50,741 nucleotides of DNA from Methylotenera sp. (GTDB lineage Bacteria > Pseudomonadota > Gammaproteobacteria > Burkholderiales > Methylophilaceae). Location of the stretch: the NCBI GenBank assembly GCA_017880905.1, contig JADGRO010000039.1:1-50741 (forward strand), written 5' to 3'. Positions 1,865 to 31,938 of this stretch are shown one piece after another. Position 1 is the stretch's first letter, and every line of letters begins with the position of its first letter. A program made the translations under genes and the position numbers. The notes under the pieces were generated by a model. It was not told the origin of the DNA and made no database searches. It was given only the letters and a program-made list of their open reading frames with translations.

Positions 1865-2947
1865 CTAAGCAATCGCCTCAAGGGTTTGTTTTAGCTTGTC
1901 TGCATCATAATCACTAGTAATTAACGCGTTGCCTATACCTTGCTGCAACACGAGCCTAATTTTGCCGTCAATCACTTTTTTATCTAAGCCCATTAAATCA
2001 AGGTATTTTTCTACGCCCAGTTTTGGCGCATCGAGTGGCAAGTTGGCTGCAGTAAACACTGCGTAGATACGCTGAATATCTGCACTTGTTAGCCACCCCA
2101 TGCGTTGCGATAAATCTGCGGCCAGCATAGTACCCGCGGCCACTGCCTCACCATGCAGCCACACGCCATATCCCATGGCGTTTTCTATTGCGTGGGCGAA
2201 AGTATGGCCCAGATTAAGCAGAGCACGTTCGCCCACTTCGTGTTCATCGGCTGCAACTACCTCAGCTTTATTTTTGCACGAGCGGTAAATCGCATAAGTA
2301 GTCACCGCTTCATCTAGCGCCATGAGTTTGCTCATATTGATTTCTAGCCAATCAAAAAAATCTGCATCGCGGATAAGACCATATTTAATGACTTCTGCCA
2401 CACCTGCAGAGAGCTCACGCTGTGGCAAGGTTTGGAGTGTATCAATATCAGCCAACACAACTTTAGGCTGATAAAACGCACCAATCATGTTTTTGCCTAA
2501 AGGATGATTGATGCCGGTTTTACCGCCAACACTTGAATCTACTTGCGCAAGCAGCGTGGTGGGAATTTGGATAAACGGGACGCCACGCAAATATGTTGCT
2601 GCAGCGTAACCTGTTAAATCGCCAATAACCCCGCCGCCAAGTGCAATTATTGTAGTGCTACGCTCACAGCGATTTTCAAGTAAAGCATCATAAATTTGGT
2701 TTAGCGTTTCACTATTTTTACATGCTTCGCCGTCAGGTAAAATAATTTCAATCACGCTGAAGCCCGCATCGCGCAAAGGCTGAGCGAGATTTTCAAGGTA
2801 CAAGGGTGCTACGGTAGTGTTAGTAATAATTGCTACCTGTTTGCGCTTTAAGTGCGGCAAAATTAAATTGGTCTGGCTAATCAAACCACTGCCAATGTGT
2901 ATTGGGTAGGCGCGGTCACCAAGTGCGACTTGTAGAGTTTGTATCAT
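1865..2947 (-). CDS. aroB: 3-dehydroquinate synthase
   Basis: AroB converts DAHP to 3-dehydroquinate, the second step of the shikimate pathway, using NAD and a divalent metal. At 360 residues it has the usual family length. The NAD-binding segment [14 protein letters not shown] lies at about 103-117, followed by [18 protein letters not shown]. The metal ligands are Glu185 (VAEVIKYG), His248 ([10 protein letters not shown]) and His265 (LHGEAVAAG). The start overlaps the aroK stop by 4 bases (ATGA), so the two are translationally coupled; the chorismate they help make feeds the trp operon located further along the window. Confidence 0.98.
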
Positions 2948-3477
2948 AATTCGGCTAACGATTTTTCTATTTGGTCGAGTATATTGGCTACAGATTGATT
3001 GCCAGTATCAAAGATTAGCGTAGCGGTTTCTGTGTAGAGCGGGTTACGCTCAGCATAAAGCTGCTCTAGTTTTGCGCGAATATCCACGTTTTGCAGTAAA
3101 GGCCGGTGCTTATCATTGCGCGTTCTATGCCATAACTCATTCACATTAGCGCGCAGATAAATCACCGTGCCATTTGCCTGTAACAATTTCCTATTTTCTT
3201 CAGTAATCACTGCACCGCCACCAGTAGCCATTACAATATTTTTTAGCCTGGTGAGGTCTTGAACGACTGCCGTTTCACGTTTGCGAAAACCACTTTCACC
3301 TTCAAGATCGAAAATGACCGGTATTTTAACACCTGTGCGTTTTTCAATCTCGTGATCGGTATCATAAAATGTTTTGCCCAGCTGTTTGGCTAATATTTTT
3401 CCAATAGTGGTTTTACCAGCGCCCATCAAGCCAATAAAATAAATGTTATTTTTGCCATTTGTCATATTTTTGGCCAC
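2944..3477 (-). CDS. aroK: Shikimate kinase
   Basis: AroK phosphorylates shikimate at the 3-OH with ATP. The P-loop GLMGAGKTT is at 16-24, the shikimate-binding [11 protein letters not shown] at 39-49, the second glycine-rich loop ATGGGAV at 84-90, and the lid segment NDKHRPLL near 118-125. The longest frame begins with GTG at 3477; an ATG 12 bases further in (3465) gives a protein of 173 residues and is equally plausible, since neither has a convincing ribosome-binding site. The start lies immediately after a hairpin plus T-run that resembles a terminator for the pilus operon, so how aroK is transcribed (read-through or its own promoter) is open. Confidence 0.97.
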
Positions 3478-3480
3478 AAT

Positions 3481-3515
3481 AAAAAATGCCTACCATGGTT
3501 AATGATAGGCATTTT
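3481..3515 (-). terminator. Hairpin with T-run between pilQ and aroK
   Basis: In the minus direction a perfect 10-base stem (AAAATGCCTA with TAGGCATTTT, 3506-3515 and 3483-3492) encloses a 13-base loop and is followed by a run of six T (3481-3486). This is the form of a Rho-independent terminator at the end of pilMNOPQ. The T-run ends only 4 bases before the GTG start of aroK, so a transcript that stops here would exclude aroK, and any aroK message must read through or begin just upstream. The stem is AT-rich apart from a GCC/GGC core, so termination may be partial. Confidence 0.55.
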
Positions 3516-3552
3516 AACGTAAAAGGTAAAGCGAGCGTTCTGTCAGAACGAA

Positions 3553-5691
3553 TTAACGCAATTCTAAACTTTCATCCATAATTTTTGGTGTAATAAAGAT
3601 GAGTAGTTCAGTTTTATCGTCTTGTTTGGTTCTATGCTTAAACACATTTCCAATAATGGGTAAGTCACCGAAGAAAGGCACTTTGTCTACATCATTACGC
3701 TCAGTTTGCTCGTAGATACCTCCAAGTACGGCGGTTTCACCATTTGTTACTAACACTTGTGTGTTTACACTCTGCGTATTAATCGCAGGCCCGGCTGGAG
3801 TAAGTACACCCTGGCTATCTTTCCTCACCTCTAAATCCATAATGATTTTTTCATCTGGGGTAATTTGTGGTGTTACTTCAAGACTTAGCTCTGCCTTTTT
3901 GAAAGCAACGTTAGCCGCACCACTACTAGAAGCTTGCAGATAAGGAATTTCGACGCCTTGTGCAATCCTCGCTTTTTGCTGATTGGCCGTGGTTACGCGT
4001 GGACTAGATACAATTTTGCCACGTTTATCACTTTCAAGTGCGGTAAGTTCTAAATTGAGTAACAACCCAGCAGGCAGCCTAAACAAACTAAAAGCAACAG
4101 TACCAAATGCATTAGCCACGGGTAAATTTGAGTTTAGGCCGCCTGTATTACCTAACGCTGAAGCGATTGTAGTTGAACCTGTAGCGCTACCTGTATTGTT
4201 TAACGTACCCCCAATACTAAGGGCATTATTCCCGCCATCGCTTTTTGCCGCATGTTGCACACCAAATCTAGCACCCAATTCTTTTGCAAACTTATCGTCC
4301 GCAATTACTATACGTGATTCGATCATCACTTGTTTCACAGGCACATCTGTTTTATTAATAATATCTTGAATTTCCTCTAGTTTTTTTGCCGTATCTTGAA
4401 TAAATAGCGTATTGGTGCGAGGATCCCACACAGCACTACCACGTTTCGAGAGGATGCTCTTGTTTTGGCCACTGCCGCTAGAATTTGTGCCTGTAATAAT
4501 ATCTTTAAATGCCTCTGCTTTTTGATATTTCAGCGTAAATACTTCTGTTCGTAATGGCTCCAAATCTTGAATTGCGCTAGAAGCTTCTAGTTGGGCTTTT
4601 TCTTTGGCTGCAACTTCTTCTGCCGGAGCAACGGTAATTACATTACCAACTTTGCGCATGGCAAGCCCTTTATTTTGCATGATGATATCCATGGCCTGAT
4701 CCCAAGGTACATCTTTTAATCTTAAGGTCAGGCTACCAGTAACCGTATCACTAGCAATGATATTTAGTCCTGTAAAGTCTGCAATCACTTGCAAAACAGA
4801 ACGAACTTCAATGTTTTGGAAATTGAGTGATAATTTTTCGCCCGAATAACCTGGTTTTGAACCTTTAACTAGCTTATTAGGATCTTCAATTACTTGGCGC
4901 ACATCGATAATAAATTTATTATCTGCCTGATAAGCAGACTGCTCCCACTCACCCTTAGGCTCAATCACCATGCGTCCATTTTTGCCTTGTTTCATTGTAT
5001 CCACATATAAAACCGGCGTATTAAAATTTATCACATTTAGACGACGTTGCAATTCAGTTGGCACATCGGTATTCACAAAGTCAACGACTATGAGCTTGCC
5101 TTTTTGTTTAATATTAATACCAGTATTTGGGTCTGATAAATCAACAATGATGCGGCCTTCGCCATTTTTACCACGTGCAAAATCAACATTAGAAATTGAG
5201 TGCTCTTGATTGCTGCTAGCTGTGGATTCCGCAAATCGGGTTTCGTTAAGTGTGTTAGCGGTTGTTTCACTTCCTTGTAAGGTAATAATCACGTCATTTC
5301 CGTTCAAAACGGCGTTATAATTCACGTTTCTGGTCAAATTCAACACCATCCTTGTACGGCCTTTAGCTTGGGCCAAGGAAACACTTTTCAACGCGCCTTG
5401 CCCACTTGGAATGTTACTTTTCGCTAGGCCGTTTGCCGTTTGAGGGAAATCTAAAGCAATTCTTGCAGGATTATTAAGTGTAAAGCCTGCAGGAGGATTA
5501 GTAAGTGCCTCCGTCAAGTGAACTCGAATGCTGACACGTCCTCCCGGAAGTGCAGAAAAATCGATATTCTCAATTTTATTGCTCAACAAATCTTCGTCTG
5601 CCGCATAAGCATTACCAAATAGGCCTATACAGATTAGCAGCATCGTTGCAAATAGTTTAGTTATCATTTTAATCATATCCGTTCCCATCAT
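3553..5691 (-). CDS. pilQ: Type IV pilus secretin PilQ
   Basis: PilQ forms the outer-membrane ring through which type IV pili leave the cell. The 712-residue protein has a signal peptide (MIKMITKLFATMLLICIG, then NAYA before the mature start), two AMIN peptidoglycan-binding domains (about 37-140 and 165-265), an STN/N0 domain (about 285-360, with SLNFQNIEVRSVLQVIADFT), an N1 domain (about 380-460) and the C-terminal secretin domain. The family signature VPFFGDLPIIGNVFKHRT followed by TELLIFITPKIM is near the end. The frame begins MMGTDMIKM; the Met-Ile-Lys start at codon 6 would give a more compact signal peptide. It begins directly after the pilP stop and is the last gene of the pilMNOPQ operon. 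Confidence 0.97.
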   Translation of the reverse strand: MMGTDMIKMITKLFATMLLICIGLFGNAYAADEDLLSNKIENIDFSALPGGRVSIRVHLTEALTNPPAGFTLNNPARIALDFPQTANGLAKSNIPSGQGALKSVSLAQAKGRTRMVLNLTRNVNYNAVLNGNDVIITLQGSETTANTLNETRFAESTASSNQEHSISNVDFARGKNGEGRIIVDLSDPNTGINIKQKGKLIVVDFVNTDVPTELQRRLNVINFNTPVLYVDTMKQGKNGRMVIEPKGEWEQSAYQADNKFIIDVRQVIEDPNKLVKGSKPGYSGEKLSLNFQNIEVRSVLQVIADFTGLNIIASDTVTGSLTLRLKDVPWDQAMDIIMQNKGLAMRKVGNVITVAPAEEVAAKEKAQLEASSAIQDLEPLRTEVFTLKYQKAEAFKDIITGTNSSGSGQNKSILSKRGSAVWDPRTNTLFIQDTAKKLEEIQDIINKTDVPVKQVMIESRIVIADDKFAKELGARFGVQHAAKSDGGNNALSIGGTLNNTGSATGSTTIASALGNTGGLNSNLPVANAFGTVAFSLFRLPAGLLLNLELTALESDKRGKIVSSPRVTTANQQKARIAQGVEIPYLQASSSGAANVAFKKAELSLEVTPQITPDEKIIMDLEVRKDSQGVLTPAGPAINTQSVNTQVLVTNGETAVLGGIYEQTERNDVDKVPFFGDLPIIGNVFKHRTKQDDKTELLIFITPKIMDESLELR

Positions 5692-26419: not shown

Positions 26420-27669
26420 TGAGCGCACCCTCTATTTGGCAATCACTCTTGAGCAAAAAAATGCTCATCTGCATTTTCACCGGCTTTAGTTCTGGTTTGC
26501 CGCTCTACATCCTCATTAGTCTGCTACCCGCTTGGTTACGCTCTGAGGGCGTTAATCTTAAGGCCATCGGCTTATTCGCTTTAATTAATCTGCCGTTTAC
26601 TTGGAAGTTTTTGTGGGCGCCGTTATTCGATCGCTACACGCCGCCGTTAGGTCGCAGACGTGGCTGGTTGCTGATTTCGCAGCTTTTATTGTTGGTTTCT
26701 ATCCCTATTTTTGGTGCGTTTAACCCCAAGTTAGACATTTGGACGATTGCATATTTAGCTACGGTAGTGGCATTTTTTAGCGCATGCCAAGATGTTGTGT
26801 TAGACGCGTATCGGCGCGAATTGCTGATAGATAGCGAATTAGGCTTGGGCAACGCGGTGCATGTGAATGCCTATAAAATTGCGGGCTTGGTGCCAGGTTC
26901 GCTTTCGTTAATATTGGCCGACCACATGGCGTGGAGCAGCGTGTTTACCATCACCGCGTTGTTTATGTTGCCGGGCATATTGATGACGATTTTTGTAGCA
27001 GAACCCGCGCTAAAAAATGGTACACCAAAAACGCTGAAAGCCGCCGTGCTAGAACCTTTCAAAGAGTTTATTTCTCGTCACGGTTTGCAAAGTGCGCTCA
27101 CCGTTTTGGCGTTTATTTTCTTTTATAAATTGGGCGACAGCATGGCCACCGCGTTAGCAACACCATTTTACCTCGACATGGGGTTTAGCAAAACCGAAAT
27201 TGGCTTAATCGCTAAAAACGCTGGCTTGTGGCCCAGCGTGATAGGTGGTCTATTAGGTGGTGTTTGGATGTTCAAGCTCGGCATTAACCGTGCGCTATGG
27301 ATATTTGGCACAGTGCAAATGATTGCAATTTTAGGTTTTGCATGGCTGGCCACCCTCGGGCACAGCCTGTTGTGGCTAGGCATTGTTATAGGCGTGGAAG
27401 CATTTGGCGTAGGCCTTGGAACAACGGCCTTTGTGGCCTATATCGCACATACCACACACCCACTTTACACCGCCACCCAATTTGCTTTATTTACCAGTTT
27501 AGCTGCTGTGCCAAGAACCTTTGCCAATGCGGCGACTGGTTTTATGGTAGAAAATTTAGGCTGGTTTAAATTCTTTATTTTGTGTTTTATTCTGGCGATT
27601 CCGGGCATGTTATTGCTATTTAAAGCAGCACCTTGGAATATTGTTAAAGAAAACGAAAAAACTTTGTAA
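26419..27669 (+). CDS. ampG: AmpG-like muropeptide MFS transporter
   Basis: AmpG imports anhydro-muropeptides for cell-wall recycling. The 416-residue MFS protein has the family start FTGFSSGLPLYI, WLRSEGVNLKAIGLFALI, FLWAPLFDRYTPPLGRRRGW and around 12 hydrophobic helices. It starts at a GTG whose G is the last base of the metW TAG stop. Its neighbours here are not cell-wall genes, so substrate is taken from sequence resemblance. Confidence 0.88.
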   Translation: MSAPSIWQSLLSKKMLICIFTGFSSGLPLYILISLLPAWLRSEGVNLKAIGLFALINLPFTWKFLWAPLFDRYTPPLGRRRGWLLISQLLLLVSIPIFGAFNPKLDIWTIAYLATVVAFFSACQDVVLDAYRRELLIDSELGLGNAVHVNAYKIAGLVPGSLSLILADHMAWSSVFTITALFMLPGILMTIFVAEPALKNGTPKTLKAAVLEPFKEFISRHGLQSALTVLAFIFFYKLGDSMATALATPFYLDMGFSKTEIGLIAKNAGLWPSVIGGLLGGVWMFKLGINRALWIFGTVQMIAILGFAWLATLGHSLLWLGIVIGVEAFGVGLGTTAFVAYIAHTTHPLYTATQFALFTSLAAVPRTFANAATGFMVENLGWFKFFILCFILAIPGMLLLFKAAPWNIVKENEKTL

Positions 27670-27718
27670 GGCTTATGTAATTTGGGCGACTAACTTCTGG
27701 TCTTTAAGGAGGAATGTC

Positions 27719-28504
27719 ATGATGTCTGCTCGCAAACTTTTAATCACATTCAGCTTAATTAATCTCGTCGCACAACCCGCAATTGCTGCCGAGTGCAGCG
27801 CCAAGAGCGGCGCACAAACCGTTCCATTACTCGAGCTTTACACCTCCGAAGGTTGTAGCAGCTGTCCACCAGCAGATAAATGGTTAAGCGAATTAAAGCC
27901 TGACCCAAGCAAAGTGATTCCGCTGGCTTTTCATGTAGATTATTGGGATTACATCGGCTGGAAAGACAAATTCTCCAAATCGGAATACTCGGACCGCCAA
28001 CGCAAAACTGCGGCTTTTGAAGGCGCTAGTTATGTTTATACACCACAGTTTGTGTTAAATGGCCGAGACTTCAGGGACGCTGACGATTCGCGCTTAAATC
28101 AAGCAATATCCAGCAACCAAAAATTCGCCTCGCGCGCCAATTTAAGTTTAAATGCTGTAACCGAAACCAATGGTACATTCACGCTCAAAACCAACGCACA
28201 AGCGGTGAAGCCAATCGACGCTAAAAATAGCGATGTGTTTGTGGCGATTTATGAAAACAAATTAGTGAGTCAAGTGAAGGCGGGCGAAAACAGTGGGCGC
28301 GAACTAAAACATGATTATGTGGTGCGCGAGTTTTTTGGCGCTTACCAAATGAATAGCCAAATCAATAATCAAAATGAATTTAGCAAGAACTTTACGCTAA
28401 GCCCGGAGTGGAAAAAACGCAATGCGGGTGCAGTAATTTTTGTGCAAGACAGCCAAACCGGTGAGATTTTACAAAGCTTGGCGCTAAAGTTTTGCGACTC
28501 TTAA
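27719..28504 (+). CDS. DUF1223 secreted thioredoxin-like protein
   Basis: The 261-residue product has a signal peptide (KLLITFSLINLVAQPAIAA, cleavage after AIAA or nearby) and the DUF1223 thioredoxin-like start LLELYTSEGCSSCPPADKWL with Cys46 and Cys49. The motif suggests a periplasmic thiol-disulphide or metal-handling protein; function is unproven. The start is fixed by a strong ribosome-binding site AAGGAGGA (27706-27713) 5-6 bases before ATG 27719; the frame can be read further upstream into ampG but that is not supported. It converges on and overlaps the end of the bufferin operon by 4 bases. Confidence 0.9.
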   Translation: MMSARKLLITFSLINLVAQPAIAAECSAKSGAQTVPLLELYTSEGCSSCPPADKWLSELKPDPSKVIPLAFHVDYWDYIGWKDKFSKSEYSDRQRKTAAFEGASYVYTPQFVLNGRDFRDADDSRLNQAISSNQKFASRANLSLNAVTETNGTFTLKTNAQAVKPIDAKNSDVFVAIYENKLVSQVKAGENSGRELKHDYVVREFFGAYQMNSQINNQNEFSKNFTLSPEWKKRNAGAVIFVQDSQTGEILQSLALKFCDS

Positions 28505-29268
28505 ATCTTGGTAATTAGGCCTTCATTTAGCCAACTTGATAAGTATTGTGCGGCTTGCATGGTGGCGGCTTCTTCAGTGGTATTTTTTTGCAATTTTTCG
28601 CAAATCACGCCAAAATTGACGCCAGAAATGGCTAATTGAATAGCCGTATATTCTGTCGCTTCTAATGAGCGAAAATGTGAATTCATGTCACGTCGCCAAA
28701 TAAGGTAAGGCTCAGAATTTTGCGCTACACCCGGCGGCGTTTCTTCATTGTTCAAAGCATGCCAAATTTGAAGCACATTCCACTCCAATGGCAATAATTG
28801 CACTGAGGGGTGAAACACAAACTTCAAATCAGCCCAAGTTTCTGGCGAAACCTCAGCTAAATCTTGTAAAGTGAGTATCGGCGCATCTTCTGCGTCAAAG
28901 GCCAAGCTTAGCGTCCACTCAAAAACCGCGAGCTCGGCAGCGATTGGGTGTTGTGGTAACATTTTAAGTAAATGTGTTTGCATCTTATCGCCAACCCAGC
29001 GCATATTGCGATAAGTCGAAGGATATTGGTCGATATAGCTACGCGCTGTGCTTTCAAACAGATCATCGCCCAACATACTATGTAGTTTAGGATACGCCGT
29101 TGCCAGCGCCTCAATGATGCGAAAACGATAAGCATCATAGTAGATTCCAAGGCGTTTATTTACACCTACTTTTATGTCATCAATAATGCGATTTTTAAAC
29201 GCAACACCTTTGATATCATCGATTAAATACGCCTGAAAATCAGCCTGTAATTGCGCCAAATGACTCAT
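28501..29268 (-). CDS. bufC: DUF2063 / BufC-like RiPP maturation partner
   Basis: The 255-residue protein has the DUF2063 layout: an N-terminal helical segment LAQLQADFQAYLI, the conserved GVNKRLGIYYDAYRFRIIEALATAYPKLHSMLGDDLFESTARSYI (split here across about 36-80) and a variable C-terminal half. This family pairs with DUF692 enzymes and is thought to recognise the precursor peptide (as HvfC/MbnC-like partners). It overlaps the upstream bufB by 4 bases. No DoxX-like fourth gene follows; the next gene is the convergent DUF1223. Confidence 0.88.
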   Translation of the reverse strand: MSHLAQLQADFQAYLIDDIKGVAFKNRIIDDIKVGVNKRLGIYYDAYRFRIIEALATAYPKLHSMLGDDLFESTARSYIDQYPSTYRNMRWVGDKMQTHLLKMLPQHPIAAELAVFEWTLSLAFDAEDAPILTLQDLAEVSPETWADLKFVFHPSVQLLPLEWNVLQIWHALNNEETPPGVAQNSEPYLIWRRDMNSHFRSLEATEYTAIQLAISGVNFGVICEKLQKNTTEEAATMQAAQYLSSWLNEGLITKI

Positions 29269-30143
29269 GCCGCGGCCTTTAATATTTTGCCTGCGATATC
29301 GCGAGCAATTTGTAATTCTTGTACAAGCTCTTTTAACGGCGGAATATGATCATCGCGCTCAATCATAGTGGAAACCGCGCCAACCCGCGACAGTGTATAT
29401 GCATACAAATCCCACACCGGATTGATGATTGGCGCATCGTGCGTATCGATAATGTAATCACCATGATTATGATGACCAGCTAAATGAATTTGCTGAATAC
29501 GATTTTTTGGCACGCCGTCAATAAAGGCTTTGGCATCGAATTGATGGTTATAACTACTGACGTAAATATTGTTCACATCCAGTAGCAGTAAACAATCTGC
29601 TTTTTCGCTGATTAGCGAAATAAATTCCCACTCAGTCATGGTCGAATCCACATAACTGGCGTAGCTAGACACGTTTTCCAGCAATATACGACGCCCTAAA
29701 TAATCTTGCACTTGCACCACGCGCTCAGCGACGTGTTTAGCAGTTTCTTCGGTATAGGGCAGTGGCAATAAATCGTGTATGTTTTGGCCATGCACGCCTG
29801 TCCAACATAAGTGGTCAGAAATCCAAGCAGGTTGTACCCGGTCTGCTAATTGTCGTAAATCACGCAAATAACCTTTATCTATTGGGCTTGCAGAGCCAAT
29901 AGATAAAGACACTCCATGCATCGCAACAGGGTAATTTTCGCAAATTTTATCCAAAAAATGCAGCGGTTTACCACCTGGCACCATATAGTTTTCCGATAAT
30001 ACCTCAAACCAATCAATATTCGGTTTGGACTCTAGGATGTCGAGGTAATGATCTGTACGTAAACCAAGACCAAAGCCTAAACTAGGTAATTTCAATTTAG
30101 TCAGAGTGTGTTTAGACTTATCTATTAAATTCATAAAAAGCAT
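29265..30143 (-). CDS. bufB: DUF692 multinuclear-iron RiPP maturase (BufB-like)
   Basis: DUF692 enzymes are iron-dependent TIM barrels (as MbnB and TglH) that oxidise cysteines of precursor peptides. The 292-residue protein starts LGFGLGLRTDHYLDIL and shows VLSENYM (Glu51), MHGVSLSIGS (His76), LLENVSSYA (Glu156), LLLDVNNIYVSS (Asp189, Asn191) and IHLAGHHNHGDY (His220, His224), the family metal ligands. The ATG at 30143 lies inside a stem-loop; an ATG at 30134 (MNLIDKSK) is the alternative. Two precursor genes precede it. Product is probably a thiooxazole-bearing, copper-binding bufferin. Confidence 0.93.
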   Translation of the reverse strand: MLFMNLIDKSKHTLTKLKLPSLGFGLGLRTDHYLDILESKPNIDWFEVLSENYMVPGGKPLHFLDKICENYPVAMHGVSLSIGSASPIDKGYLRDLRQLADRVQPAWISDHLCWTGVHGQNIHDLLPLPYTEETAKHVAERVVQVQDYLGRRILLENVSSYASYVDSTMTEWEFISLISEKADCLLLLDVNNIYVSSYNHQFDAKAFIDGVPKNRIQQIHLAGHHNHGDYIIDTHDAPIINPVWDLYAYTLSRVGAVSTMIERDDHIPPLKELVQELQIARDIAGKILKAAA

Positions 30144-30176
30144 ACCATCTCACAGTTTAATTGAGAGACAGTATGC
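30140..30176 (-). promoter_or_regulatory. Stem-loop burying the bufB start and ribosome-binding region
   Basis: In the minus direction GCATAC (30171-30176) pairs with GTATGC (30140-30145), and inside it TCTCA/TGAGA (30062-type inner arms at 30162-30166 and 30148-30152) pair around a 9-base loop. The structure is followed by TTTTT (30135-30139). The GAGATGG ribosome-binding sequence (30145-30151) and the bufB ATG at 30143 are in the 3-prime arm, so folding would hide them. The signal could also act as a partial terminator. Confidence 0.5.
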
Positions 30177-30187
30177 CATTTATTCTA

Positions 30188-30451
30188 CTACATAACTTTG
30201 CCACCTTTAGCACTACACTCAGCCGCAGTCAATGATAAAAAACCATGGCCTTTGCACACATTTTGGCCTTTGCAAGCATTTTCCGCAGTTTTACAGTCAC
30301 TAGTACCCTTGCATGAATTAACACCCGTACAGTGTACTTTAGCCTCTGTAGAATTATCAGCCGCGACTACAAAACCGGACTGAATAAGTGCTGCAGCACT
30401 AAGTGCGATCATTGCGCCTGTACGCATTTTATTTTGAATACCTGTCATCAT
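30188..30451 (-). CDS. bufA: Bufferin-type precursor peptide with Sec signal
   Basis: The 87-residue peptide begins with a Sec signal (MRTGAMIALSAAALIQSGFVVA, then ADN) and carries six cysteines at 41, 47, 53, 60, 66 and 79 in the repeating pattern VNSCKGTSDCKTAENACKGQ, NVCKGHGF and ECSAKGG. This is the layout of the 6-Cys BufA2-like periplasmic bufferin precursors, which are modified at Cys by DUF692 enzymes and bind copper. A clear AAAGGA ribosome-binding site lies 9 bases before ATG 30451. It is the second of two paralogues; the Cys-rich core is nearly identical in DNA to that of the upstream copy (37 of 38 bases at 30276-30313 against 30611-30648). Confidence 0.9.
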   Translation of the reverse strand: MMTGIQNKMRTGAMIALSAAALIQSGFVVAADNSTEAKVHCTGVNSCKGTSDCKTAENACKGQNVCKGHGFLSLTAAECSAKGGKVM

Positions 30452-30493
30452 GACAATTTTCCTTTACAATTAAATTGACTTTCATGTGAAATA

Positions 30494-30510
30494 GGCATGA
30501 CGCGCATGCC
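30494..30510 (-). promoter_or_regulatory. Intercistronic hairpin between the two bufferin precursors
   Basis: GGCATG (30494-30499) and CATGCC (30505-30510) form a 6-base stem with loop ACGCG, flanked by A/T tracts on both sides (TATTT after it in the minus direction). It could trim or partly end transcripts between the precursor genes, or protect the upstream message. It is too short and its tail too weak to be called a firm terminator. Confidence 0.4.
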
Positions 30511-30522
30511 TTTTATTTTTTA

Positions 30523-30792
30523 CTAGATAATAGTGCCATTTTTAGCACTGCAATCCGAAGTGGACAGGCTTAAGAAGCCATGACCTTTGCATGCGTTTTG
30601 ACCTTTACACGCATTTTCCGCAGTTTTACAATCACTAGTACCCTTGCACGAATTTACATCAGCGCAATGTACCATTTCTCTGCTTGAGGCACTTTTATTG
30701 ATTGTTCCAGCACAGCCCGACAAAATAAGTGCTGCTGCTCCAACTGCCAACAATGCGCCTTTACCCATTTTAGATGATGTTTCAATGGACAT
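30523..30792 (-). CDS. Bufferin-type precursor peptide with lipoprotein signal
   Basis: The 89-residue peptide has the same six-cysteine core as its neighbour (Cys43, 49, 55, 62, 68, 81; DVNSCKGTSDCKTAENACKG), but its signal ends in ALILSGCAGT, a lipobox with acceptor Cys27, so the mature product is likely lipid-anchored rather than free in the periplasm. A good ribosome-binding site (GAGAGGA, about 7 bases before ATG) is present. First gene of the operon; BufB/BufC maturase genes are downstream. A lipoprotein form of such a precursor is not something I recognise as standard. Confidence 0.88.
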   Translation of the reverse strand: MSIETSSKMGKGALLAVGAAALILSGCAGTINKSASSREMVHCADVNSCKGTSDCKTAENACKGQNACKGHGFLSLSTSDCSAKNGTII

Positions 30793-30845
30793 TATAATTC
30801 CTCTCGATAATTTGATTTTAAATTAACAAACCTGCCAACCTGTCG

Positions 30846-30875
30846 CTAAAGTAAAAAATCAACCCTTTACTTTAG
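30846..30875 (-). promoter_or_regulatory. Perfect 10-base inverted repeat upstream of the bufferin operon
   Basis: CTAAAGTAAA (30846-30855) and TTTACTTTAG (30866-30875) are exact inverted repeats 10 bases apart, 54-83 bases before the first bufferin gene. The place and symmetry suit an operator for a dimeric regulator, or an RNA hairpin in the leader. It does not match the CueR/CopR or the ECF (GTAAC/CG-type) sites I know from bufferin or copper regulons, although GGTAAC occurs just outside. Confidence 0.4.
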
Positions 30876-30963
30876 TTACCAGTGTTAGTCGTGATGAATT
30901 AAAAAGCCTTACATATATTGCAAAAAATATCGTGATTATCGAGCCTAAGCCCAAAATAAGCAC

Positions 30964-31938
30964 TTATTGAGTAGGCGCTATTTGGGCAGACTCCACATTA
31001 GCAGCGTGCTTATTTACTTCAGCGGGCACGCCCTCTTCTTCGGCCATGGAATCGGCAGCAGCTTTATCAGTCGAGTCTTCTGCAAAGACTAAATCTGCAT
31101 CCTCAAGCGGCAATATCGCCAAGGTTTCTTCCTCAACCATTTTTTGTAACTGGTTATCACTGGTTTGCAAATCTTCTGTCCAACCATTTTGGCTGGTTTC
31201 ATCAAATTGCAAAATACAAGCGACTGAATACATCTCCCAATCTTGATGATTCATCAAATTAAGTGCAATTTCGTCTGATTCAGCCAATTGGCTGGGTTTC
31301 ATTTTCGCCATAGCCACCTCAGAGCCCAGCATAGAAGTGGCAGTTGACGCTGCACTAGTAAGCAAGGTGGTGGCAGTTGTGGCCTGCGTAGCCGCTGACG
31401 AGGCGCCAATAATACCAGCGGCTGGGAACAATACCGCTGCTAAAGCTGAGATGATTAGTTTAGTGGAAGTATTTTTTACATGATGCTTGCCAATAACATG
31501 CCCCATCTCACGCGCCAAAATAAAACCTAGCGCATCATCTGTAAGTTCCATTTGTTGCAGACCGCGAAGAACTAAAATCTTTCCAGCGCCATTTGATGCA
31601 GTACCAGGATTTTTTTTATCGATCACGCTAAAAGAAAATTGCGGCACACGTTTTTTTAGCGTTGGATACAATGTATATGCAGTTGTAGATAATTGTGCGC
31701 CTAGCTGTTGTACGCGCGCATCAAATTCCTGATTAAAGCTACAATTTTCTGCTACACATGGCGCTGCATTTGGCTTAGCGGCAAGCCGCACGCGCATATC
31801 TACATCTGAGTATATGTCACTGATGCTATCAGGCACAATTTCGGGCGCAGGAGCGGCTTCATCTTCACCAGCATGTGCCACGGACACATTGAGCAATTGC
31901 GCAACAACGAGTATAGAAATGAGTTTTTTAATTGGCAA
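30964..31938 (-). CDS. M48-like secreted protein with altered HExxH site
   Basis: The 324-residue protein has a signal peptide (LISILVVAQLLNVSVAHAG) and a region (about 70-235) that aligns with M48 metallopeptidases: DDALGFILAREMGHVIGKHH at 134-153 and the later AESDEIALNLM (219-229). In active M48 enzymes the sequence at 143-147 is HExxH; here it is REMGH, the first zinc ligand His being replaced by Arg143. It also carries hydrophobic stretch 161-205 and a low-complexity acidic C-terminus. So either it is a pseudo-enzyme (chaperone or scaffold) or zinc is bound differently. It precedes the bufferin genes on the same strand, 171 bases away. Confidence 0.75.
   Translation of the reverse strand: MPIKKLISILVVAQLLNVSVAHAGEDEAAPAPEIVPDSISDIYSDVDMRVRLAAKPNAAPCVAENCSFNQEFDARVQQLGAQLSTTAYTLYPTLKKRVPQFSFSVIDKKNPGTASNGAGKILVLRGLQQMELTDDALGFILAREMGHVIGKHHVKNTSTKLIISALAAVLFPAAGIIGASSAATQATTATTLLTSAASTATSMLGSEVAMAKMKPSQLAESDEIALNLMNHQDWEMYSVACILQFDETSQNGWTEDLQTSDNQLQKMVEEETLAILPLEDADLVFAEDSTDKAAADSMAEEEGVPAEVNKHAANVESAQIAPTQ

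Follow-up and report, generated by a model that had tools for sequence, protein, structure and literature searches.

A compact operon in Methylotenera sp. contig JADGRO010000039.1 (assembly GCA_017880905.1), of which we analyzed a stretch of 50,741 nucleotides (nt) referred to here as the window, is, judged by its genes, a well-formed bufferin operon of the Buf2 type; its host is a Methylotenera-like methylotroph, and the operon is a variant within a peptide family already described. On the minus strand at 28501-30792, open reading frame (ORF) calls and profile searches identify two BufA2 precursors, followed by the maturase BufB and a DUF2063 partner protein. We propose, with a probability of roughly 0.7, that this operon is a copper- and oxidant-stress module that makes one anchored and one free buffer and that is probably driven by an extracytoplasmic function (ECF) sigma factor. 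The source assembly is 1.93 Mb in size and 92% complete, and the window's nearest named BufA2 relatives, among the best 80 of 152 named loci, are from Methylotenera metagenome-assembled genomes (MAGs). A megablast search of a plasmid collection gave no near match to 28400-31000. Published work is cited below by PMC number and from excerpts of the papers.

Both precursors match the NCBIfam model for BufA2 (NF050166; 100.5 and 97 bits, cut-off 60), and neither has a Pfam family above cut-off. A first-pass annotation of this DNA had described two six-cysteine precursors with differing leaders ahead of a DUF692 maturase and a DUF2063 partner; ORFs, Pfam and NCBIfam agree on the gene order, and the sequence bears out the leaders. 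In the upstream precursor, bufA2-A, the leader ends in ILSGC, such that the lipobox Cys27 comes in addition to six core cysteines, and the protein satisfies the lipobox pattern after a charged and hydrophobic stretch (K8, K11 and LSGC27, by eye). The downstream precursor, bufA2-B, has six cysteines; by residue count, Phe27 of its QSGF has the same number as Cys27 of bufA2-A, and a cleavage site lies near Ala30-Ala31 (by eye). Intact sets of six cysteines and four Cys-Lys motifs are present in both cores and are kept in four Methylotenera-type genomes. The two leaders share a 62-nt block that is 77% alike. We consider the pair, a predicted lipoprotein (bufA2-A) and a predicted soluble periplasmic bufferin (bufA2-B), to be a sound prediction. 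Among the lipobox precursors that we surveyed, the +2 residue is Ala in 41/59 and Asp in 0/59.

The two enzymes fit the same assignment. BufB scores above the NF050167 cut-off (387 bits vs 310), and an alignment with the solved DUF692 protein 3bww shows that both have the MNIO motifs HG, SDHL, EN, LDVNN, H-AGH, DTH and ERD, which we take to hold the metal ligands. Asp264 of BufB, following ERD, aligns to a Phe in 3bww and would correspond to the site at which Phe is replaced by Asp in Cys-Lys (Buf2) MNIOs (PMC13097082). The bufC product is above the PF09836 cut-off (61.5 bits vs 27.2) and is not an HvfC equivalog (NF050145, 46.6 bits, cut-off 142). Given that a search of the assembly (92% complete) found no MNIO gene other than bufB, the first-pass suggestion that one pathway yields an anchored and a free product stands as a prediction, for the products as for their maturation.

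Neither the lipobox nor the tandem arrangement is peculiar to this genome. Lipoprotein signal peptides are predicted for about 16% of Buf2 bufferins (Antoine et al. 2025, PMC12452194) and a subset of bufferins and oxazolins has signal peptidase II signals (PMC12636315, a preprint), so a lipobox in bufferins is not new; biosynthetic gene clusters (BGCs) with tandem precursor genes also exist (PMC12452194). The excerpts of these two papers do not mention a pair that mixes lipobox and non-lipobox precursors. Our survey searches were centred on the window and covered the best 80 of 152 named loci plus 187 family, 399 order, 369 class and 398 phylum genomes, with part of the matches fetched. We examined 295 loci and kept 313 matches, dropping 26 below 45 bits, a cut-off that excludes DUF2282-type (Buf1) pairs and one pair (L179) with a short second member (32 bits). 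By a PROSITE-type pattern, 59 of 274 distinct BufA2 precursors are lipobox-type, a share that is no census since the searches were centred on the window. A BufA2 match above cut-off is found in 23 of the 187 genomes of the window's family, and 19 of these 23 have a lipobox copy. Non-lipobox copies are found in G034, G037 and G038 (L043, L044 and L040), and the G131 copy is truncated by the contig start with LILAGC visible; L041, which begins within the signal peptide, was scored as non-lipobox despite a visible LILAGC.

Tandem pairs number 20, namely 9 without any lipobox, 7 with a lipobox precursor followed by a non-lipobox one, 2 in the reverse order and 2 with a lipobox in both. The 9 mixed pairs come from 9 genomes (the window's, G168, G149, G127, G697, G872, G914, G657 and G925) with seven genus codes and six family codes; in the G872 fragment no MNIO is seen before the contig ends. 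A selective excess of mixed pairs was considered and set aside, as random pairing predicts about 7 of 20 and four of the 9 seen are from one related group. The first-pass annotation had called the arrangement new and had named a survey showing lipobox bufferins to be common and already described as grounds for refuting it. With lipobox Buf2 bufferins and tandem precursors already in print (PMC12452194, PMC12636315), those grounds apply and the elements of the arrangement are not new; the mixed pair itself recurs in nine surveyed genomes, the window's included.

The survey also turned up unusual cores. Buf2 cores have 6 Cys in 90% of cases and 12 in the rest (PMC12452194). In family relatives L045-L052, the lipobox BufA2 core is expanded to ten Cys through extra Cys-Lys repeats. 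At L265 2083-3259 and L264 2775-3164 there are tandem precursors, two of which have a strongly expanded core; in one of the two, a His-rich linker follows the lipobox.

The most useful new lead is an ECF-type promoter motif that the operon shares with a DUF1223 gene and, in relatives, with MsrP and HvfX genes. The exact motif TGTAAGG-N15-CGACTAA occurs at 2 sites in the 1.93 Mb assembly vs 0 for a reversed-pattern control, and the two sites precede bufA2 and the convergent DUF1223 gene, which is the next gene after the operon (the 3' ends overlap by 4 bases). Upstream regions of lipobox precursors have the exact motif in 15 of the 19 compared and near forms in the other 4 (L037, L038, L045 and L062), at varying distance. 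Across the genus, 13 of 15 genomes together contain 31 exact sites, vs 1 for the reversed control. A locus is available for 30 of these sites; taking at each the longest ORF that begins no more than 300 nt downstream gives bufA2 (8), DUF1223 (7), MsrP (4), a short MsrP-like ORF (1), HvfX/DoxX (3), glyoxalase-like (3), a zinc-finger anti-sigma (2) and other (2). Five genus genomes have convergent bufA2 and DUF1223 genes with both motifs (the window's, G163, G165 contig 9, G167 contig 23 and G169 contig 115). The DUF1223 protein has a leader and a CSSC motif (by eye), and we infer that its gene is co-regulated with the bufferin operon. For MsrP, L342 matches NF003767 at 453 bits and three more were assigned by similarity to L342. 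An HvfX-family DoxX gene lies behind the motif, away from the operon, in G168, G162 and G173 (134, 127 and 132 bits, cut-off 80), and in G162 and G173 less than 2 kb separates the DoxX site from the MsrP site. As the first-pass annotation had observed, no DoxX gene is found among the ORFs of the window's operon and the next gene. The assembly's own two DoxX genes, outside the operon, have no motif at up to 3 mismatches and fall below the HvfX cut-off of 80 (34 bits and no score). Glyoxalase-fold proteins with a leader stand directly behind the motif in three relatives (L344 by Pfam, L349 and L357 by similarity), and in relatives L350 and L367 the exact motif is just ahead of an anti-sigma gene.

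The form of the motif may point to a particular kind of regulator. When relaxed, the motif is found ahead of 94 of 274 surveyed precursors (opposite strand, 10 of 274), taking the form TGTAAC-N-CGAA in many loci from Sphingomonas and Caulobacter, like published sigmaF and ECF16 motifs. The Neisseria sigmaE motif has a -35 element GTMAGBWTT, 12-13 nt and a -10 element CGTCTAAH (PMC2893595). Compared to this consensus, which is from another genus, the window site has 1 mismatch per element and a spacer of 12, and the Methylotenera form resembles it more closely than it does the sigmaF/ECF16 form. The window's genome also encodes an ECF/anti-sigma pair (C32; Sigma70_r2, r4_2 and zf-HC2) whose anti-sigma has Cys4, His30, Cys34 and Cys37, as in MseR. 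Five sites with 1 mismatch are present in this genome; two precede an msrB-msrA pair (secretion leaders by eye) and an msrA gene. At L324 there is no ORF of at least 70 amino acids nearby, and at L326 a longer ORF is 197 nt away. One such site lies within an ECF sigma coding sequence (L325 1428-1982, minus strand; by eye); it may be chance or an internal promoter, and we read it as chance, though the matching sites in L350 and L367 are exact and precede the anti-sigma gene. For sigma70-type promoters, the operon region gives 9 vs 6.5 expected, close to chance.

Described systems offer parallels for both the peptides and their regulation. Buf2 (BufA2, Buf_6/12Cys; PMC12452194) is like the window operon in its six-Cys precursor, MNIO, DUF2063 protein, lipoproteins and tandem precursors; the excerpts of that paper place sigma genes in Buf1 rather than Buf2 BGCs, whereas the window's Buf2 operon has an ECF-type motif ahead of it. 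DybA and NedA are likewise MNIO-modified precursors with a lipobox, and NedA is triacylated with NedBC in E. coli, but NedA is an EGKCG oxazolin and DybA a ChrA-like peptide, unlike the window BufA2, and the excerpts describe no anchored/free pair (PMC12636315). An ECF sigma with a small anti-sigma is likewise found in Neisseria meningitidis (sigmaE/MseR, PMC2893595) and Haemophilus influenzae (RpoE2/HrsE; PMC3240639, PMC7907618), systems that feature MseR Cys4/His30/Cys34/Cys37, a promoter GTMAG..CGTCTAA and control over msrA/msrB as well as over a DoxX-COG3220-DUF2063 cluster. In Haemophilus the peptide belongs to the oxazolins (PMC12452194) and DoxX is within the cluster. The window instead has Buf2 precursors and DUF1223, and its relatives have MsrP. 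The peptide of the Neisseria cluster is an oxazolin too. In ECF16, represented by Caulobacter sigmaF/NrsF (PMC3511200) and Sinorhizobium RpoE7 (PMC6180224), an ECF promoter likewise precedes DUF692-DUF2063 operons; the Caulobacter sigmaF promoter is GTAACC-N16-CGAA and YedY (MsrP) belongs to its regulon (PMC3511200). Caulobacter differs in its DUF2282 (Buf1) precursors, its NrsF anti-sigma and its -10 element (PMC3511200), and we rejected sigmaF/NrsF as the regulator here because NrsF was not found in the window's genome.

A second regulatory feature is a hairpin ahead of bufB. A 61-nt stretch that runs up to and into the bufB start has a computed fold of -22.2 kcal/mol (z -6.25), and a hairpin with z<=-2 is present at 146 of 214 surveyed junctions, a set of distinct precursors each closely followed by an MNIO frame, in which the first genes of tandem pairs are counted too. 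The same threshold is reached in 4/214 controls inside the precursor, 10/214 inside the MNIO and 7/59 other same-strand gene junctions, the last from the window and 80 named loci only, where genes were assigned simply as the longest ORFs. The interval that separates the two window precursors has a weak hairpin (z -1.78 over an 86-nt stretch). We suggest that the bufB-side hairpin may act by partial termination or by protecting the 3' end of the precursor mRNA. The control scan also found a very strong hairpin (z -6.5) elsewhere in the window (2944-5691, minus strand), at the junction between 2944-3477 and 3553-5691.

Based on these data, we propose the following model. BufB and BufC would modify the cysteines of both precursors in the cytoplasm, by a thiooxazole-type change if Buf1 is a guide, and Sec would export both modified precursors. 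The bufA2-A product would be lipidated at Cys27 and, with Ala at +2, sent to the outer membrane by Lol, while the bufA2-B product would be cut by signal peptidase I and stay soluble in the periplasm, such that, between them, excess copper would be bound both at the membrane and in the periplasm. Expression would probably be driven by an ECF sigma of the sigmaE/MseR kind, along with the DUF1223 thiol protein and perhaps methionine-sulfoxide repair enzymes, and the hairpin would probably raise precursor mRNA over enzyme mRNA.

Would such a pair have arisen recently? The first-pass annotation had described nearly identical cores and proposed a recent tandem duplication that made a new anchored/free pair in this lineage. 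The identity of 37 of 38 bases is correct, but it describes the best tract only: a 35-base probe from it with up to 3 mismatches finds these two places only within the window (0 expected from shuffles), while from Cys1 onward (102 bases) the copies share 82/102 bases and 20/34 third positions. Repeat blocks of 155 and 62 nt between the copies are each 77% alike. Because orthologous cores share 88/102 bases (window A vs G127 A) and 85/102 (window B vs G168 B), the two window cores are no closer to each other than to orthologues. In a 22-precursor tree, the lipobox and non-lipobox copies of four Methylotenera-type operons stand apart, the four B copies cluster (93/90, not starred), and a constraint uniting window A and B is rejected (p=4e-7, weakening to p=0.034 with the core alone). 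A mixed pair of the window type is also present in three other MAGs. Within the 12 codons of the tract, 11/12 third positions are shared vs 9/22 elsewhere, a contrast (p=0.009, which is too small given that the tract was picked after being noticed) that favors recent duplication at face value and is absent from the other three Methylotenera-type pairs. An identity excess limited to one tract is the pattern expected of gene conversion, and local homogenization between the window precursors is its likely source. A recent duplication is therefore highly improbable and already largely refuted; on these comparisons the two precursor types are probably old paralogues, homogenized locally in this genome, and the predicted anchored/free pair is old rather than recent and not unique to this genome. 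The B copy is missing from G169, the sister of G168 in the A tree (99/96), implying that B was lost there or gained separately.

Two other readings concern what the pair does. Whether one MNIO pair modifies several precursors is raised in the discussion of PMC12452194, and one precursor could be the only true BufBC substrate, the other being unmodified or a decoy; G169, G163 and G167 have one match each, of the lipobox kind. Set against this are the conservation of both cores in four genomes and the shared leader block, as BufBC recognition in Buf1 involves the signal peptide according to preliminary evidence (PMC12452194), and we think a single substrate unlikely. Doubtful, too, is the idea that the anchored copy serves for export, for example in outer-membrane vesicles, or for another metal or oxidant, rather than for copper buffering in place. 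Vesicle release has been proposed for lipidated oxazolin (PMC12636315), and MsrP behind the same motif in relatives fits oxidant stress.

A number of observations weigh against our preferred model of an ECF-driven anchored and free buffer. The signal types are predicted from a lipobox pattern and a reading of residues, and the first Lys of bufA2-A is at residue 8, presumably late under the PROSITE lipoprotein rule. The core-only tree rejects an A+B grouping weakly (p=0.034) and lacks a B clade, though such a clade is not rejected (p=0.17), and the MNIO tree leaves the four tandem operons ungrouped, with forced grouping weakly rejected (p=0.038). The assembly has 8 Sigma70_r2 proteins, of which C32 is a candidate reader of the motif, and NrsF, the partner of Caulobacter sigmaF, was not found in this genome. 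At up to 2 mismatches the genome has 13 motif sites vs 23 for the control, so the case for the msrBA and msrA sites is one of position and function. Lastly, a T-rich tail follows only 54/207 local junction hairpins, and most are thus unlike classic terminators.

A broader form of the model is possible, and we offer it tentatively: one MNIO/DUF2063 pair would supply a two-compartment metal buffer of outer-membrane-anchored and free periplasmic bufferin, co-induced by an MseR-type ECF sigma with DUF1223 and methionine-sulfoxide repair, such that copper buffering and envelope oxidant repair form one regulon, with the anchored/free split having arisen more than once in Pseudomonadota. The features on which the analysis draws are collected in Table 1.

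Table 1. Features of the bufferin locus and its convergent neighbor, in window coordinates.
Feature	Position	Strand	Details and evidence
bufA2-A, upstream precursor, predicted lipoprotein, 6-Cys BufA2 core	30523..30792	-	89 amino acids; ORF call, NCBIfam, PROSITE-type lipobox pattern
LSGC lipobox of bufA2-A (Cys27), Ala at +2	30712..30723	-	sequence, pattern
Weak hairpin, bufA2-A/bufA2-B interval	30493..30511	-	86-nt stretch z -1.78; stem terminator-like on + strand only
bufA2-B, downstream precursor, predicted signal-peptidase-I substrate, 6-Cys BufA2 core	30188..30451	-	87 amino acids; ORF call, NCBIfam; pattern finds no lipobox
QSGF of bufA2-B at lipobox position (Phe27)	30371..30382	-	sequence
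Near-identical core tract, bufA2-A copy	30611..30648	-	sequence
Near-identical core tract, bufA2-B copy	30276..30313	-	37/38 bases; sequence
Strong intercistronic hairpin, bufA2-B/bufB, extending to bufB start	30133..30183	-	-22.2 kcal/mol, z -6.25
bufB, MNIO (DUF692) maturase	29265..30143	-	NF050167 387 bits; PF05114 373 bits; alternative ATG at 30134
bufC, DUF2063 partner	28501..29268	-	PF09836 61.5 bits
Convergent DUF1223 gene	27719..28504	+	PF06764 210 bits; promoter motif; AGGAGG ahead of ATG
ECF-type promoter motif TGTAAGG-N15-CGACTAA	30885..30913	-	exact match; end 92 nt ahead of first precursor
Second exact copy of ECF-type motif	27665..27693	+	exact match; end 25 nt ahead of DUF1223 start

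Mixed precursor pairs provide natural side-by-side cases in which to study the reason that some bufferins are anchored and to see whether a single MNIO complex takes two precursors with a common leader. Through the shared motif, Buf2 bufferins are linked to an envelope-stress sigma system of known type and DUF1223 becomes a candidate partner; the motif also shows where the operon's missing DoxX/HvfX gene sits in three relatives. The hairpin that recurs ahead of bufB suggests a means by which precursor and enzyme amounts are kept apart.

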